64,000 bases of DNA, taken from NCBI GenBank assembly GCA_017451265.1, contig JAFSPU010000003.1, positions 62,001-126,000 on the forward strand, read 5' to 3'. This document shows, one piece after another, positions 8,207-37,275 of the stretch (position 1 is the stretch's first letter; every line of letters starts with the position of its first letter). The position numbers were made by a program, and so were the translations under genes. Below the pieces are notes generated by a model, which worked only from the letters and a program-made list of their open reading frames with translations, had not been told where the DNA came from and ran no database searches. This DNA is from Clostridiales bacterium (GTDB lineage Bacteria; Bacillota; Clostridia; Saccharofermentanales; Saccharofermentanaceae).

Positions 8207-8815
8207 TCAGATAAAAGGCTCCTCAGGCGGCTTAATACCGATGCTGCCCATGATCTTTACTCCCACGTCGTACATCATCCTGCAGGCCGCTTCCTTGGGC
8301 ATTCTGAAGTTATCAAAGATCATCATTACCGCAAGGCCGTGCGTGTATATAACGACGTCCCTAACGGCTTGGCCAAGAACATCTCCGTCGATGTTATACT
8401 CCGCCGAAATCATCTGCAAAGCTTCCTTATCGAACTGATTCATGAAGATACTTGAGTTGCCGGTGATACTCTCGCCTATCGTCTTCTCGGGACTGTCTAC
8501 ATTAATAAAGCGGAACACATTCGGGTGGTCACAGGCTCCGGAGAGATAATGCACGCCTGATATAAAGAACGCCTCGAAGGCAGGCTTACCCTCCATCTTA
8601 CGAGGCAGCTCCTCGTAAAGCTTATTGCCGGCAAAGAAATACAGTTCCTTCTTAAGTTCCGTCATGCTCCCGAAATGCCACGATACCGGCTGAGTGGAGC
8701 AGTTAAGCTTCGCCGCTATAGACTTAATGGCAACGGCTTCGATACCGCCCTCATCGAGCAGTTCGTAAGTCGCCTCCAGTATCATCTGTTTGTCTATCTT
8801 CGCTTTACGTCCCAT
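8207..8815 (-). CDS. TetR/AcrR family transcriptional repressor
   Basis: A 202-residue regulator. Residues 6-52 form the TetR helix-turn-helix: ILEATYELLDEGGIEAVAIKSIAAKLN followed by CSTQPVSWHFGSMTELKKEL, where WHF replaces the usual YHF. The rest is the variable ligand-binding domain. It is the last gene of a three-gene minus-strand unit with two flavin oxidoreductases, overlapping the previous gene by 11 bases. A 9-base-arm palindrome over the operon promoter at 9989-10010 is the obvious operator, so I infer autoregulation. It converges on the permease gene 15 bases away; whether it also controls that transporter cannot be read from the sequence. Confidence 0.88.
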   Translation of the reverse strand: MGRKAKIDKQMILEATYELLDEGGIEAVAIKSIAAKLNCSTQPVSWHFGSMTELKKELYFFAGNKLYEELPRKMEGKPAFEAFFISGVHYLSGACDHPNVFRFINVDSPEKTIGESITGNSSIFMNQFDKEALQMISAEYNIDGDVLGQAVRDVVIYTHGLAVMMIFDNFRMPKEAACRMMYDVGVKIMGSIGIKPPEEPFI

Positions 8816-9458
8816 AAGGTTTATAGTTCAAAGGCTTCTCGCAGCCCCATCCCTTTGCTATCTTTCCGAACATGATCCTTCCGATCGTCTTAAAGATTAT
8901 ACCTAACAAAAGTCTTATATGCGCCGGAAAAATCTCAGGACCCGTAAACTTCCTGCACTCTTCGCCGAAGAAATCACCTGTCTGCCCATAGACCTCACCC
9001 ATTTTCTGATACGGTCCGGTAACCCTGTCCTGCATATCTCCCTCGAAGAATCTGATGCTGAAGTTATCGCCCTTAATAAGTGTGCCCTTGTACTCACAGC
9101 CTAAACGCTTGCTTAACATAACGAGGTACTCCTCGCCGCACCTTAACTGTGCACCCTCAGCGAAACCTCCCTGCAGGATATACGCTATCTTTGTGCTGCC
9201 GTCCTTAGGCGTAACGCTTGCAAGAAACTCCAGCAGCAGGCCGGGAATGTTTTCGACATAAAGAGGGATCGCGATAAGGATGTTACCGTTCCTGTCCCAG
9301 GCCTCACGGATGCTGTCCCACTGCTTCCTGTCGGAGACCTCATACTGCTCGAAGGTATTCCCCTGAGAGCTTAACCCTTCCGTGAACTTCGCAAGGATCT
9401 TGTCCGTGTTGCTGTACTTTTTTACCCTGGGACTTCCGTTTATTATTAAGACATGCAT
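8805..9458 (-). CDS. NAD(P)H-dependent FMN reductase/flavodoxin-fold oxidoreductase
   Basis: 217 residues starting MHVLIINGSPRVKKYSNT, where NGSPR...SNT is the FMN-phosphate binding loop of the NADPH-dependent FMN reductase family. IAIPLYVENIPGLLLEFLASV corresponds to the second flavin contact region. These soluble enzymes reduce quinones, azo or nitro compounds, or supply reduced flavin. It sits between a second flavin oxidoreductase (13-base overlap) and the TetR gene (11-base overlap), so all three are translationally coupled and probably induced together. The substrate is unknown; control by a TetR repressor suggests a response to a redox-active small molecule. Confidence 0.8.
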   Translation of the reverse strand: MHVLIINGSPRVKKYSNTDKILAKFTEGLSSQGNTFEQYEVSDRKQWDSIREAWDRNGNILIAIPLYVENIPGLLLEFLASVTPKDGSTKIAYILQGGFAEGAQLRCGEEYLVMLSKRLGCEYKGTLIKGDNFSIRFFEGDMQDRVTGPYQKMGEVYGQTGDFFGEECRKFTGPEIFPAHIRLLLGIIFKTIGRIMFGKIAKGWGCEKPLNYKPYGT

Positions 9459-9952
9459 GCTGCTGCCTCCTCTATACTTTCCTTGCTGTAGGCACCGAGC
9501 GACTCACTCTCAAAGTTAAGCGCGCACCTTACAGTCCACTTCTTCAGGTAGTCCATGTCAGCCTCTCCTGTTACGATGAGGCCTACGTCCGTACGTTTCT
9601 TATAACGCGCCACATGTCTCATCTGATCACCTTTAAACTTCAGATACATAGTGGCGATGGGAAGGATCCTGTCGAAGATATTTTTCCCCTTATGATCGAT
9701 GAATCCGAGTGCTGTATCGGATATCACCCAGAGCTGATCCGCCTTGATGATCTTCTTTAAGATCTCCTCGTAGTCATCCTTGATGGAACAGACGCCCGGC
9801 GTCTTAAGCCAGCAGTAGTTGCAGCCGATGCAGTGACTGATCTTCATGTCACCAGCTTCAACGATTTGTGCTTCTATTCCCTTATTCCCGATGTGGGCTT
9901 GAAGTTCTTGTGTTATTCCTGTGTCTTTTGTGGTGTTGACTATCAGGACCAT
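9446..9952 (-). CDS. Flavodoxin-family oxidoreductase with Cys cluster motif
   Basis: 168 residues. It begins MVLIVNTTKDTGIT, a degenerate flavin phosphate loop lacking the usual NGSPR. Residues about 40-57 carry CIGCNYCWLKTPGVC followed by DDYEEI; this CxGCxxC...PGxC..DD arrangement is typical of many anaerobe NAD(P)H-dependent flavin reductases and resembles the cluster motif of iron-sulfur flavoproteins, so an Fe-S cluster is possible. It is first in the TetR-controlled unit, directly downstream of the operator at 9989-10010. It may pair with the next flavin reductase as a two-subunit or two-step reductase. Confidence 0.75.
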   Translation of the reverse strand: MVLIVNTTKDTGITQELQAHIGNKGIEAQIVEAGDMKISHCIGCNYCWLKTPGVCSIKDDYEEILKKIIKADQLWVISDTALGFIDHKGKNIFDRILPIATMYLKFKGDQMRHVARYKKRTDVGLIVTGEADMDYLKKWTVRCALNFESESLGAYSKESIEEAAACMS

Positions 9953-10036: not shown

Positions 10037-10045
10037 TGTTATAAT
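10037..10045 (+). promoter_or_regulatory. Extended -10 promoter candidate for the nuclease-like gene
   Basis: TGT followed by TATAAT (10040-10045) makes an extended -10 element 33 bases before the ATG at 10079. No good -35 box is present, as expected of extended -10 promoters. It lies back to back with the TetR-regulated promoter, so repressor binding could affect both directions. Confidence 0.4.
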
Positions 10046-10078: not shown

Positions 10079-10876
10079 ATGTTTACTAATCAAATCTCAC
10101 TTGAACTGAGGTCTCGTTTAGCTTCGGTGAATAAAATCATCGACTGGTGTGAGAAAGGCCTAGCTAAATCCCCTCCGGGGAGGCTAAAGATCAAGCATCA
10201 GGGCGGCAAAGTCTACTTTTATCAGTTGTCAGAAGGAAAGTATCCAAAGGCACATTATCTCGACAGCGGTCAAATGGATTTAATCAAGGCTTTGGCACAG
10301 AAAGCATACATAAAAGATCTTCTCAGGAAAGCTCAGAACGAGAAGCGCATGTTAACACATTTTCTCGGAGGTTTTTCCGAGTCATCATTAACGCAAATCT
10401 ATGAAGATTATTCTCATGATCGCAAGAGTCTAATAACACCTTTCACCCTCCCCGATGAAGAATTCAAACAAAGCTGGCTTTCCAAAGAATACAAGCATAA
10501 GAGCATCTCTGAAAATCTGCCAGTATTCGAAACTCTAAATGGAGAAAGAGTAAGATCAAAGTCCGAGCAGATAATAGCTGACAGGTTGTATGTTAATAAC
10601 ATTCCATACAAATACGAATGTCCTTTTCCAATGGAGGACTATGTGGTCCATCCGGACTTTACCATCCTTCGTATGAGCGACCGCCGTGAAATCTACTATG
10701 AGCACCTTGGGCGAATGGATGACGAGGATTATGCCAACAAGAATACAAGAAAGATAATTAATTACAATAGAAACGGCCTCGTACTTGGAGATAACCTGTT
10801 CGTTACAATGGAAACCAAACGTAATCCGCTGGATGTCAGAGTATTAGACAACTTGATTCAAAGGAAATTCAAGTAG
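10079..10876 (+). CDS. PD-(D/E)XK nuclease-like protein of unknown role
   Basis: About 265 residues if translation starts at the ATG at 10079; the open frame extends upstream but includes the divergent promoter. The C-terminal half shows a restriction-endonuclease-like core: RSKSEQIIADRL (E163), then VVHPDFTIL (D193), then EIYYEHLG (E208) and a helix with KNTRK. The E...HPD...E-H-L-G order matches PD-(D/E)XK nucleases in which the lysine is displaced. The N-terminal half is basic and helical (LRSRLASVNKIIDWCEKGL, LLRKAQNEKRML), which would suit DNA or RNA binding. Base composition is visibly richer in A+T than its neighbours, hinting at transfer. The gene ends 2 bases before a regular array of short inverted motifs, which may be its target. 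Function unknown. Confidence 0.65.
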   Translation: MFTNQISLELRSRLASVNKIIDWCEKGLAKSPPGRLKIKHQGGKVYFYQLSEGKYPKAHYLDSGQMDLIKALAQKAYIKDLLRKAQNEKRMLTHFLGGFSESSLTQIYEDYSHDRKSLITPFTLPDEEFKQSWLSKEYKHKSISENLPVFETLNGERVRSKSEQIIADRLYVNNIPYKYECPFPMEDYVVHPDFTILRMSDRREIYYEHLGRMDDEDYANKNTRKIINYNRNGLVLGDNLFVTMETKRNPLDVRVLDNLIQRKFK

Positions 10877-10878
10877 AG

Positions 10879-11072
10879 TGGTCACATTATCTAATTGTTC
10901 TTAAAGTGGGACCAGATTAATTACCTTTATCTGGTCCCAAATCCTTATATATTCGAATACGGGACCATTATTATCAGGATTTCTGGTCCCAACAAGTCAA
11001 ATACAGATATGTGTGACCATCTTAATCAATAAAACCTGGTCCCATTCTCCTTAATTACTAATAGTGGGACCA
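10879..11072. repeat. Array of eight alternating TGGTCCCA/TGGGACCA motifs
   Basis: Eight 8-base motifs alternate in orientation. Forward copies: 10879 (TGGTCACA), 10932, 10984, 11037 (TGGTCCCA). Reverse copies: 10907 (TGGGACCA), 10960 (CGGGACCA), 11012 (TGTGACCA), 11065 (TGGGACCA). Forward-to-reverse starts are 28 bases apart in all four pairs; reverse-to-forward starts are 25, 24 and 25. The period is therefore 52-53 bases, about five helical turns. The 20-base and 16-17-base gaps are A+T rich and share no sequence. The array fills the space between the nuclease-like gene and the tRNA-Gln terminator. The core resembles the repeated TGTGACC words I recall from ends of IS21-family elements, but no transposase is present. 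Confidence 0.85.
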
Positions 11073-11092: not shown

Positions 11093-11123
11093 CAAAAAAC
11101 CTCTCACCGTTAAGATGAGAGGT
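11093..11123 (-). terminator. Intrinsic terminator of tRNA-Gln
   Basis: Minus-strand transcript forms ACCTCTCA with TGAGAGGT (11099-11123, 9-base loop) followed by a run of six U from 11099 to 11094. It lies 5 bases beyond the tRNA 3' end. Confidence 0.85.
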
Positions 11124-11127
11124 CTTA

Positions 11128-11201
11128 TGGCTGCCGAACTAGGATTCGAACCCAGACAGACGGTGCCAGAAACCGGAGTGCTACCCTTACACAATTCGGC
11201 A
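11128..11201 (-). tRNA. tRNA-Gln (anticodon CTG)
   Basis: A 74-base cloverleaf with encoded CCA. Acceptor TGCCGAA pairs with TTCGGCA, then G73 and CCA. D arm is GTGT/GCAC with loop AAGGGTA. The anticodon loop TTCTGGC gives CTG, reading CAG glutamine codons; its stem has four pairs and one C-T mismatch at the outer position. T arm is CTGGG/CCTAG with loop TTCGAAT. A good promoter at 11225-11253 and a terminator at 11093-11123 flank it, so it is a single-gene transcript. Confidence 0.9.
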
Positions 11202-36426: not shown

Positions 36427-37275
36427 TCACCATGGGTGGCTCGAGTTTGTGAAGGCAGACATGTAGTCGTCCGGTGTTCCGTTGGCACCGGCATATCTTT
36501 CCTGCTGACCCTGATTCTGGAGCGCGAGGATCTGCTCTTCAGGTGTGAGTGTCGGAGTAGGTGTTGCTCCTCCCTCTCCGCCGCCTTCAGGCGTGGGCGT
36601 AGGACCCTGTTCACCGCCGTCAGGCGTAGGTGTCGGTTCTTCACCGCCCTCAGGTGTAGGCGTCGGTTCTTCACCGCCCTCAGGTGTAGGCGTAGGTGTC
36701 TCTCCACCTTCAGGAGTAGGTGTCGGCGTCTCATCAGCTCCCGGTGTGGGAGTCGGCGTCTCACTCGGCGTAGGAGACGGTTCCGGAGGAGTCGTCAGAT
36801 ACTCTTCGAAAGCATCAATCTCATTCTTAAGTCTCTGTGCATCAGGATAGTGACCGCTGTTATCCGTCCTGGAAGCACAGCCGTTCTCGCAGAGGATATC
36901 ACGGGCCTGATCAAGGATAGCGAGGACCTCATCGAGGTTCTCATCATTTATGTAAGCGGGATCGATAGCCTCTACCAAAGAGAGCGCATAGTTAACTCTA
37001 AGACGGCAGTCCTGATGATCATGAAGATCGCATTCGAGTGCCTGCTCGTACTCTGCCCTGGCAAGGTCATACTGACCCAGCGAATAGAAAATGTTTCCGC
37101 GGTTATAGTAATTAACCTGAGGCTCAAAGAAGCCCAGGAAGCCCAGAGGATTCTGCTCGTACTGACCGTTATTAAACTTCTCGATCATCCTGTTATTGCT
37201 GTAATCAGCAAGCAGAATGATAGCAAGGAGCATCGCAGTTACAGTCCAGATAGCGGCCATTATTCTCTTCATCAT
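36427..37275 (-). CDS. TPR protein with Pro-Thr-rich C-terminal repeats
   Basis: 282 residues. An N-terminal signal anchor (MKRIMAAIWTVTAMLLAIILLA) is followed by a TPR-like unit, VNYYNRGNIFYSLGQYDLARAEYEQAL, as in BatC-type proteins. Residues about 160-245 consist of repeats of PTPTPEGGE and variants, an extended linker that may span the cell wall. GAGGAGGGG precedes the start. It is the last gene of the MoxR-DUF58-VWA cluster, where BatC-like TPR proteins commonly occur. The repeats are near-identical at DNA level, so length may vary between strains. Confidence 0.75.
   Translation of the reverse strand: MMKRIMAAIWTVTAMLLAIILLADYSNNRMIEKFNNGQYEQNPLGFLGFFEPQVNYYNRGNIFYSLGQYDLARAEYEQALECDLHDHQDCRLRVNYALSLVEAIDPAYINDENLDEVLAILDQARDILCENGCASRTDNSGHYPDAQRLKNEIDAFEEYLTTPPEPSPTPSETPTPTPGADETPTPTPEGGETPTPTPEGGEEPTPTPEGGEEPTPTPDGGEQGPTPTPEGGGEGGATPTPTLTPEEQILALQNQGQQERYAGANGTPDDYMSAFTNSSHPW
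36560..36780 (-). repeat. Coding minisatellite for PTPTPEGGE repeats
   Basis: About seven tandem units of roughly 27-30 bases encode PTPTPEGGE, PTPTPEGGEE and similar; two central units are identical over about 30 bases. Slippage or recombination could change copy number. Confidence 0.75.

Follow-up and report, generated by a model that had tools for sequence, protein, structure and literature searches.

Helically phased arrays of inverted half-sites beside the genes of a nuclease-like protein family in Clostridia

Introduction

Why would a gene for a small nuclease-like protein be followed at once by a row of short words that alternate in orientation and keep an even spacing? This question is raised by a stretch of 64,000 nucleotides from a Clostridiales genome (assembly GCA_017451265.1, contig JAFSPU010000003.1, positions 62,001 to 126,000), which we call the window and whose numbering we use throughout. 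The row of words, here termed the array, occupies 10879..11072 and lies behind the gene of the 265-residue protein P0001 (10079..10876, forward strand). A preliminary description of the window had pointed out the array and offered several readings of it. Our survey of homologous genes shows that the array belongs to a layout which recurs beside the majority of the surveyed family members in gut and rumen Clostridia. As judged from sequence, the row of sites is probably a docking row for the protein of its own gene.

The array in the window

Read directly from the sequence, the array consists of eight half-sites arranged as four inverted pairs, and as a whole it is assigned to neither strand. 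The forward half-sites are F1 (TGGTCACA, 10879..10886), F2 (TGGTCCCA, 10932..10939), F3 (10984..10991) and F4 (11037..11044), the last two repeating the word of F2. The half-sites on the reverse strand, spelled here as they appear on the forward strand, are R1 (TGGGACCA, 10907..10914), R2 (CGGGACCA, 10960..10967), R3 (TGTGACCA, 11012..11019) and R4 (11065..11072, with the word of R1). These positions bear out the strict alternation of four forward and four reverse 8-base motifs that had been described, and likewise the spacing: the distance from forward to reverse motif is 28 in all four pairs, that from reverse to forward is 25, 24 and 25, and the period is 53, 52 and 53. The wording given for the motifs is right overall, its sole slip being R2, which falls outside TG(G/T)GACCA. 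The gaps between the motifs measure 16-20 bp, and the bodies of the units are largely unrelated, with the 8-bp words alone kept. Both ends of the array lie where they had been placed. It starts 2 bases past the stop codon (TAG at 10874-10876), and its last base, 11072, is 23 bases short of a terminator-like stem-loop (11096..11126, reverse strand). This stem-loop belongs to a convergent tRNA-Gln gene (11128-11201, minus strand) and marks the boundary of the locus, outside the array.

The array is not a product of chance. Its alternating chain has eight members, and dinucleotide shuffles of the region (n=60) reach at most four when the same 7-mer detector is used. With a stricter 8-mer detector, none of the 177 other 700-bp tiles of the window reaches six alternating sites. 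The looser 7-mer detector finds six or more sites in 3 of 278 tiles of 450 bp and in 4 of 171 tiles of 730 bp, none with a regular period. At the spacing of the window array, the exact motif pair has no second occurrence in the assembly (1.96 Mb, about 70% complete). Single motifs are common when one mismatch is allowed (21 matches, 35.5 expected); it is the arrangement that is improbable. Elsewhere in the window, at 36580-36759, there is a five-copy direct repeat with 30-bp spacing, which gives a 7-site alternating match at short spacing with the 7-mer detector.

Distribution among homologues

The survey covers 117 loci, 73 from the genus of the window and 44 others. The genus loci were drawn from the 75 best of at least 150 listed, and the others are those returned by homologue searches, so that weaker homologues are under-sampled; one fragment (L007) was left out. 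A chain of at least six alternating sites adjoins 84 of the 117 genes by the 8-mer chain test. The same test finds such a chain in one of the 117 gene bodies, which served as controls together with the window tiles given above. When a fixed-geometry detector is added, with its threshold at the 99th percentile of 158 controls, an array is found beside 99 loci; up to three stretches were tried per locus, and therefore one or two of the extra fifteen arrays may be due to chance. An earlier 7-mer detector with a regularity filter, which preceded these two, had given arrays at 45 of 79 loci. The preliminary description attributed the array to the adjacent gene and named homologues mostly lacking an array as the finding that would break this link. 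With 84 to 99 of the 117 homologues examined carrying one, the attribution stands.

The genome of the window has four full-length copies of the gene, and three of these (the window, L009 and L010) have an eight-site array past the stop codon. The words of these arrays are TGGTCCCA, ACGTACT and TGATTGCG, respectively. The fourth copy, L011, shows a weak upstream signal alone, by the geometry detector. A scan of 457.6 kb of this genome (23%) gave three regular arrays, all of them beside P0001 paralogues. No regular orphan array was found there; three irregular 6-site matches occur among 2,247 tiles. Within the genus, arrays most often have eight sites, or four units (18 of 35 refined arrays, with a minimum of six sites for acceptance); other arrays have up to 25.

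Motifs are mostly private, usually with a different word for each gene, and a fixed TGGTCCCA signature for the family was therefore discarded. The expectation that each homologous gene would be followed by an array of this motif was mistaken, since the majority of homologues carry private motifs and the majority of arrays are upstream. With private motifs and mostly upstream arrays, a test for TGGTCCCA arrays after each gene would fail although the link is real.

Position relative to the gene

Among the 73 genus loci the array is upstream of the gene in 54, downstream in ten, on both sides in none and absent in nine. The corresponding numbers for the 44 other loci are 31 upstream, two downstream, two on both sides and nine without. 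The distance from the stop codon to the downstream array is 2 bases in L009, L018 and L019, as in the window, three in L029 and seven in L010.

The upstream preference raises the question whether the array is an autoregulatory operator, through which the protein would control how strongly its own gene is transcribed. With several phased sites the response would be sharp, an arrangement known from some toxin-antitoxin operons. Upstream arrays make up 54 of 64 array-bearing loci in the genus and 31 of 35 elsewhere, 85 of 99 in all. Of the 38 upstream arrays within 160 bp of their gene, 13 have an exact TATAAT in the intervening stretch, compared with 2.3 in shuffles (largest 6), so many arrays are near a promoter and are probably outside the gene's own transcript; when one mismatch is allowed there is no excess (28 of 38, 24.4 expected). 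An operator does not readily account for the ten genus loci, the window included, and two others in which the array lies only downstream of the stop codon. In six genes with downstream arrays, the 200 bp before the gene contain no copy of the motif beyond shuffle level, and the distance between array and gene varies widely among loci. We regard autoregulation as a serious alternative that is rather unlikely to be the answer.

Some individual loci have features of their own. In L088 (G306:C5) there are arrays on both sides of the gene, with 11 refined sites upstream and 19 downstream, and a common core word GTCCGT. In L022 (G022:C20:79314-80072) similar blocks of about 100 bp can be seen by eye to flank the gene upstream and downstream in direct orientation; no array passed the chain or the geometry test there. 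In L003 the upstream array has 63-bp units that read as a repeated 21-residue peptide in the frame of the gene, before its start. Arrays of this kind might get annotated as odd repeat proteins or CRISPRs.

Helical geometry

Periods were measured for 82 arrays. Fourteen were left out as irregular, and of the 68 regular ones 49 have a period of at most 54, 16 lie between 61.5 and 66, and three exceed 72.5. No regular array has a period from 54 to 61.5 or from 66 to 72.5. Because the chain test accepts any period from 28 to 84, these empty gaps are not its product. The class means are 52.2, 63.3 and 74.0, with steps of about one helical turn, when the outlier of 47.3 is set aside (L093, kept among the regular arrays and probably spurious). 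Five of the regular arrays, in which refinement left fewer than six alternating sites, were excluded from the finer measurements. In the remaining arrays of the three classes (46, 15 and 1), the inner pair, defined as the spacing nearer to 28.5 bp, averages 29.1, 28.4 and 30.3, and the linker 23.2, 35.0 and 42.7.

Two natural experiments show that the inner pair is kept when the linker shifts by one helical turn. L077 has four pairs, each with a distance of 28, joined by linkers of 24, 34 and 24; its seventh site is weak (3 mismatches of 11). L114 and L116 have the motif AAAGCATC in common, are 69% identical in their residues and have a pair distance of 33 in both, and their linkers are 40 (once 50) and 29 (once 30), respectively. 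The helical phasing that had been suggested for the window thus extends to the family, in three period classes (about 52, 63 and 74), between which no regular array falls, and in these one-turn changes of the linker. Across arrays the spacer sequence is often unrelated while its length is kept, in agreement with the suggestion that selection acts on motif and spacing; spacer identity ranges from 0.11 to 1.00 depending on the array.

An inverted array can also be read as RNA, either as a chain of hairpins or as a guide-like array, resembling the RNA of type III toxin-antitoxin systems or TIGR arrays. The array in the window folds far better than its shuffles (z -6.3), but any inverted array must do so, and we give this no weight. 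The arrays of TIGR-Tas systems also lie upstream or downstream of a single gene, according to the part of the report used here (PMC12045711). In 62 arrays, 192 neighbouring pairs hold a departure from the consensus, and the partner is compensated in one of them, compared with 1.8 expected from shuffles; the collection of sites tolerated few mismatches, a restriction on the variants that could be seen and not on whether they match. Since variants are uncompensated between arms, the arrays are not RNA stems. Periods and linkers moreover shift by whole turns, as double-stranded DNA read on one face demands and for which RNA offers no reason. Upstream arrays are probably upstream of the promoter. 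Rfam gives nothing above its gathering score on the window array, the best non-tRNA matches falling below it, and P0001 has no Nop domain or other Pfam match above the cut-off. The chain of RNA hairpins considered in the preliminary description is therefore abandoned, and we rate an RNA function as highly improbable.

Motif and protein

Two or more refined arrays are available in nine genus genomes, and in each of these the motifs differ, so one general host factor does not explain the arrays. Syntenic loci can differ as well: the motif is TGGTCCCA in the window and CTATACCA at the same tRNA-Gln in another genome (G016). In an alignment of the half-sites centred on the inner-pair dyad, from which L093 and the L088 upstream array were left out, a C about 12 bp and an A about 10 bp from the dyad are each found at a frequency near 0.5, and the half-sites vary outside this weak inner pattern. 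Motif similarity rises with protein identity (Mantel p 0.001, 1770 pairs). The correlation persists in the 1672 pairs that are neither syntenic nor from the same genome (rho 0.34), and the motif of the nearest protein is more similar than the average in 50 of 59 cases. L116, in which the inner pair was assigned the wrong way round, was left out of the comparisons of non-syntenic pairs, nearest proteins, syntenic pairs, and residues with motifs.

Motif avoidance by the host genome was not found. In the scanned 457.6 kb, with the three arrays excluded, the counts and their Markov expectations are 0 and 0.7 for TGGTCCCA, 4 and 5.2 for TGGTCACA, 11 and 11.5 for AACGTACT, and 5 and 5.7 for CGCAATCA. 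Isolated sites are thus probably not cut.

The protein and its relatives

The gene of P0001 is supported by its open reading frame, conserved residues, C-terminal matches to PADLOC models and structure models. Residues 1-115 are modelled as a helical hairpin with a beta tip, and a PD-(D/E)XK-like domain is assigned to about residues 133-245. Among 116 aligned proteins (L004 was left out, its matched part being shorter than 200 residues), R159, S160, K161, E163, E180, D193 and E245 are invariant and E208 is conserved at 0.99. The acidic active-site residues typical of the PD-(D/E)XK nuclease superfamily are thus present as E163, E180, D193, E245 and E208.

Residues 137-263 match the last 130 positions of the PADLOC model PDC-S68 (E 7.7e-27), with weaker matches to PDC-S69 (2.5e-8) and HEAT_CxxC_PDDEXK (1.1e-4). 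P0001 resembles these candidate defence proteins in the C-terminal nuclease domain; PDC-S68 models have about 1,200 positions, whereas P0001 has 265 residues and a different N-terminal part. The sole Pfam match of P0001 is at chance level and below the cut-off. The family has no name in Pfam, NCBIfam or PHROGs, and neither sequence nor fold gives a convincing solved relative. A likeness of the hairpin to prefoldin or RqcH was rejected, with Z only at the chance level of long helices. When residues were associated with motifs over 241 columns, the top ones were 41, 16, 46 and 37 (z 3.3 to 2.8), which suggests the beta tip and goes no further.

The gene is present in 66 of 85 searched genomes of the genus (E 1e-15 or better), with up to eight copies per genome, and in 94 of 299 genomes of a second family (f4). 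This family is probably Lachnospiraceae, to which four of the seven named relatives belong. In a phylum-wide spread of 398 genomes there are seven matches, including the genome of the window, two of which are only in the C-terminal domain of longer frames. No relative was found in IMG/VR. Nine plasmid records match, each covering at most 69% of the protein and all including the C-terminal domain, and of three phage-labelled records one is full-length; the faecal contig it comes from measures 4.2 kb and has no detected array. On these grounds a phage or plasmid origin was rejected.

Many loci are syntenic between genomes, and this allows the tempo of the gene to be compared with that of its surroundings. 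In 99 syntenic genus pairs the median identity is 85% for the neighbour protein, 70% for the nuclease part and 50% for the N-terminal part; 45 of these pairs come from one locus group, and only neighbours at least 60% identical over 60 residues were used, a choice that raises the median of the neighbour. In 97 of the 99 pairs the N-terminal part is less conserved than the neighbour, and in 82 the nuclease part is so too; in the other 17 the nuclease part is conserved as well as the neighbour or better. The pair L045 and L069 runs contrary to the trend, with nuclease proteins 96% and neighbours 87% identical. In one syntenic group (L035, L037, L039, L040, L042, L068, L071, L076, L079 and L081) the medians are 87% for the neighbour and 61% for the N-terminal part; its array signals are weak and A+T rich. 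Fast protein change is usual for conflict genes, and it is no proof of a conflict role here.

Synteny also bears on two further explanations. The array might be a substrate, inside which the nuclease nicks or cuts for recombination, for array turnover or for the spread of the gene with its array as a module. Many loci keep their place between genomes and are not scattered, arrays stand on both sides of the gene in only 2 of 99 array-bearing loci, the spacers of the window have no conserved cut site, and the viral and plasmid searches gave no relative in the one and partial matches in the other. We consider a substrate unlikely. Alternatively, the array could be an element of chromosome architecture, such as an anchor or boundary, with the nuclease domain acting as a DNA-clamping scaffold. 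The loci are chromosomal in the records seen, occur in several copies per genome and often keep their place, and their sites would lie on one helix face. The conservation of the nuclease residues, the patchy presence in both families and the fast change of the protein argue against it and make it very unlikely.

Proposed function

From sequence evidence, we consider it likely that the array is a platform of double-stranded DNA bound by the product of the adjacent gene. A multi-site platform for a protein was among the first proposals for the window, and it is the best reading of the cis linkage, the spacing by the helical repeat and the link between motif and protein. In this model a protein dimer would read each unit, which consists of two half-sites in inverted orientation whose centres are about 28 bp apart. 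The linkers would hold all dimers on one face of the helix, with a period of 5, 6 or 7 turns, and dimers on one face could bind side by side and cooperatively. We infer that the natural reader is the product of the linked gene and that its N-terminal beta tip may contact the motif. Most paralogues have their own half-site sequence, and array and protein change together.

What such a platform is for is a more speculative matter. Our tentative proposal, which falls well short of being probable, is storage, perhaps in the service of defence: a nuclease made in small amounts would be restrained by the array at its own locus, and it would be freed or activated when the cell comes under attack, by phage takeover or through breakdown or remodelling of its DNA. 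Storage suits upstream and downstream arrays alike, and it agrees with the cooperativity suggested by the phasing, with an active site that is conserved, with the lack of motif avoidance in the genome and with the relation of the domain to candidate defence proteins. A wider hypothesis, somewhat more doubtful still, is that of a bacterial conflict system of a new kind, in which a lone nuclease has a private, fast-changing and phased self array as its safety catch. Here the array would take the place of a protein or RNA antitoxin and capture the nuclease through cooperative binding; the nuclease would be released once host DNA is lost or remodelled in an infection. Motif and reader would evolve together, and gut and rumen Clostridia would carry many specificities, with up to eight genes per genome.

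Several points weigh against binding of the array by its neighbour, or against storage as its purpose. In 18 of the 117 loci no array passes either test. The constancy of the inner pair across period classes is partly a consequence of its definition, and for this reason the two natural experiments are the stronger evidence; several 63-bp arrays split about evenly, and the 74-bp class has one refined array. N-terminal and C-terminal identity predict motif similarity alike (rho 0.317 and 0.307), so the motif-reading domain is not located by this comparison, and the joint inheritance of linked gene and array could partly explain the correlation between motif and protein. The motifs of paralogues are not pushed apart: similarity is 0.410 within and 0.359 between genus genomes (permutation p 0.04, opposite to repulsion), and repulsion was dropped as an idea. 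The N-terminal model does not clearly match any known DNA-binding fold. The canonical E-x-K is not plain in P0001, where E208 is followed by H209 and L210; judging by the sequence, K161 or another lysine could fill the role of the E-x-K lysine. Nothing direct favours storage over autoregulation, and storage has no known trigger.

If the binding of the array by its own protein is true, a large unnamed gene family gains a defining feature in the private binding array beside the gene. It would also provide dozens of natural protein-motif pairs with matched geometry, which would help in understanding how a new domain reads sequence, and an example of a nuclease kept safe by DNA alone. Each gene would state its own target sequence, and its function would thus be readily testable.

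Comparison with known systems

Transposon ends can have multiple sites, as in the TnsB sites of Tn7 or in IS21. The arrays differ from these in being one-sided at 97 of the 99 loci that have an array (two-sided in none of 64 in the genus and in 2 of 35 others), in their alternating inverted pairs and in the synteny of many loci. In the phased operator arrays of toxin-antitoxin modules and in parS or iteron clusters, dimers bind regularly spaced sites cooperatively beside a gene, as we propose here. In contrast to them, the array can be wholly downstream and its motif is private to most paralogues. Compared with type III toxin-antitoxin RNA, the window array lacks near-identical tandem units, and there is no compensation. 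Compared with a CRISPR array, the repeated elements are 8-bp words in alternating orientation and not direct repeats of about 25-36 nt.

So-called false CRISPRs, a class defined by the lack of cas genes and of spacer diversity, and tandem repeats have a similar look of repeat and spacer (PMC5294841); alternating orientation, helical phasing and a linked nuclease are not mentioned in the portion of that paper used here. The consulted part of the TIGR-Tas report describes a single gene, with a nuclease domain in some clades, and an adjoining tandem array upstream or downstream, whose short conserved words alternate and whose spacers vary (PMC12045711). These systems have two distinct repeats of 8-12 nt, 9-nt spacers, a Nop domain and processed guide RNAs, whereas here a single word alternates in orientation, the gaps in the window array are 16-20 bp, no Nop domain was found in the protein, and the arms do not covary. 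Searches of open-access papers, judged by title and the beginning of the abstract, gave no description of the pairing of gene and array; subscription journals and bioRxiv preprints lie mostly outside this scope, and a description elsewhere is possible.

Neighbouring features

Upstream of the gene of P0001, a TATAAT at 10040..10045 on the forward strand is its probable -10 box, as inferred from sequence, with no good -35 seen; a pattern scan for promoters did not list it. Two overlapping minus-strand genes, at 8805-9458 and 9446-9952, are divergent from the nuclease gene and appear flavodoxin/FMN-reductase-like from the look of their sequences. On their side there is a promoter-like TTGACA-16-TATTAT at 10034-10007.
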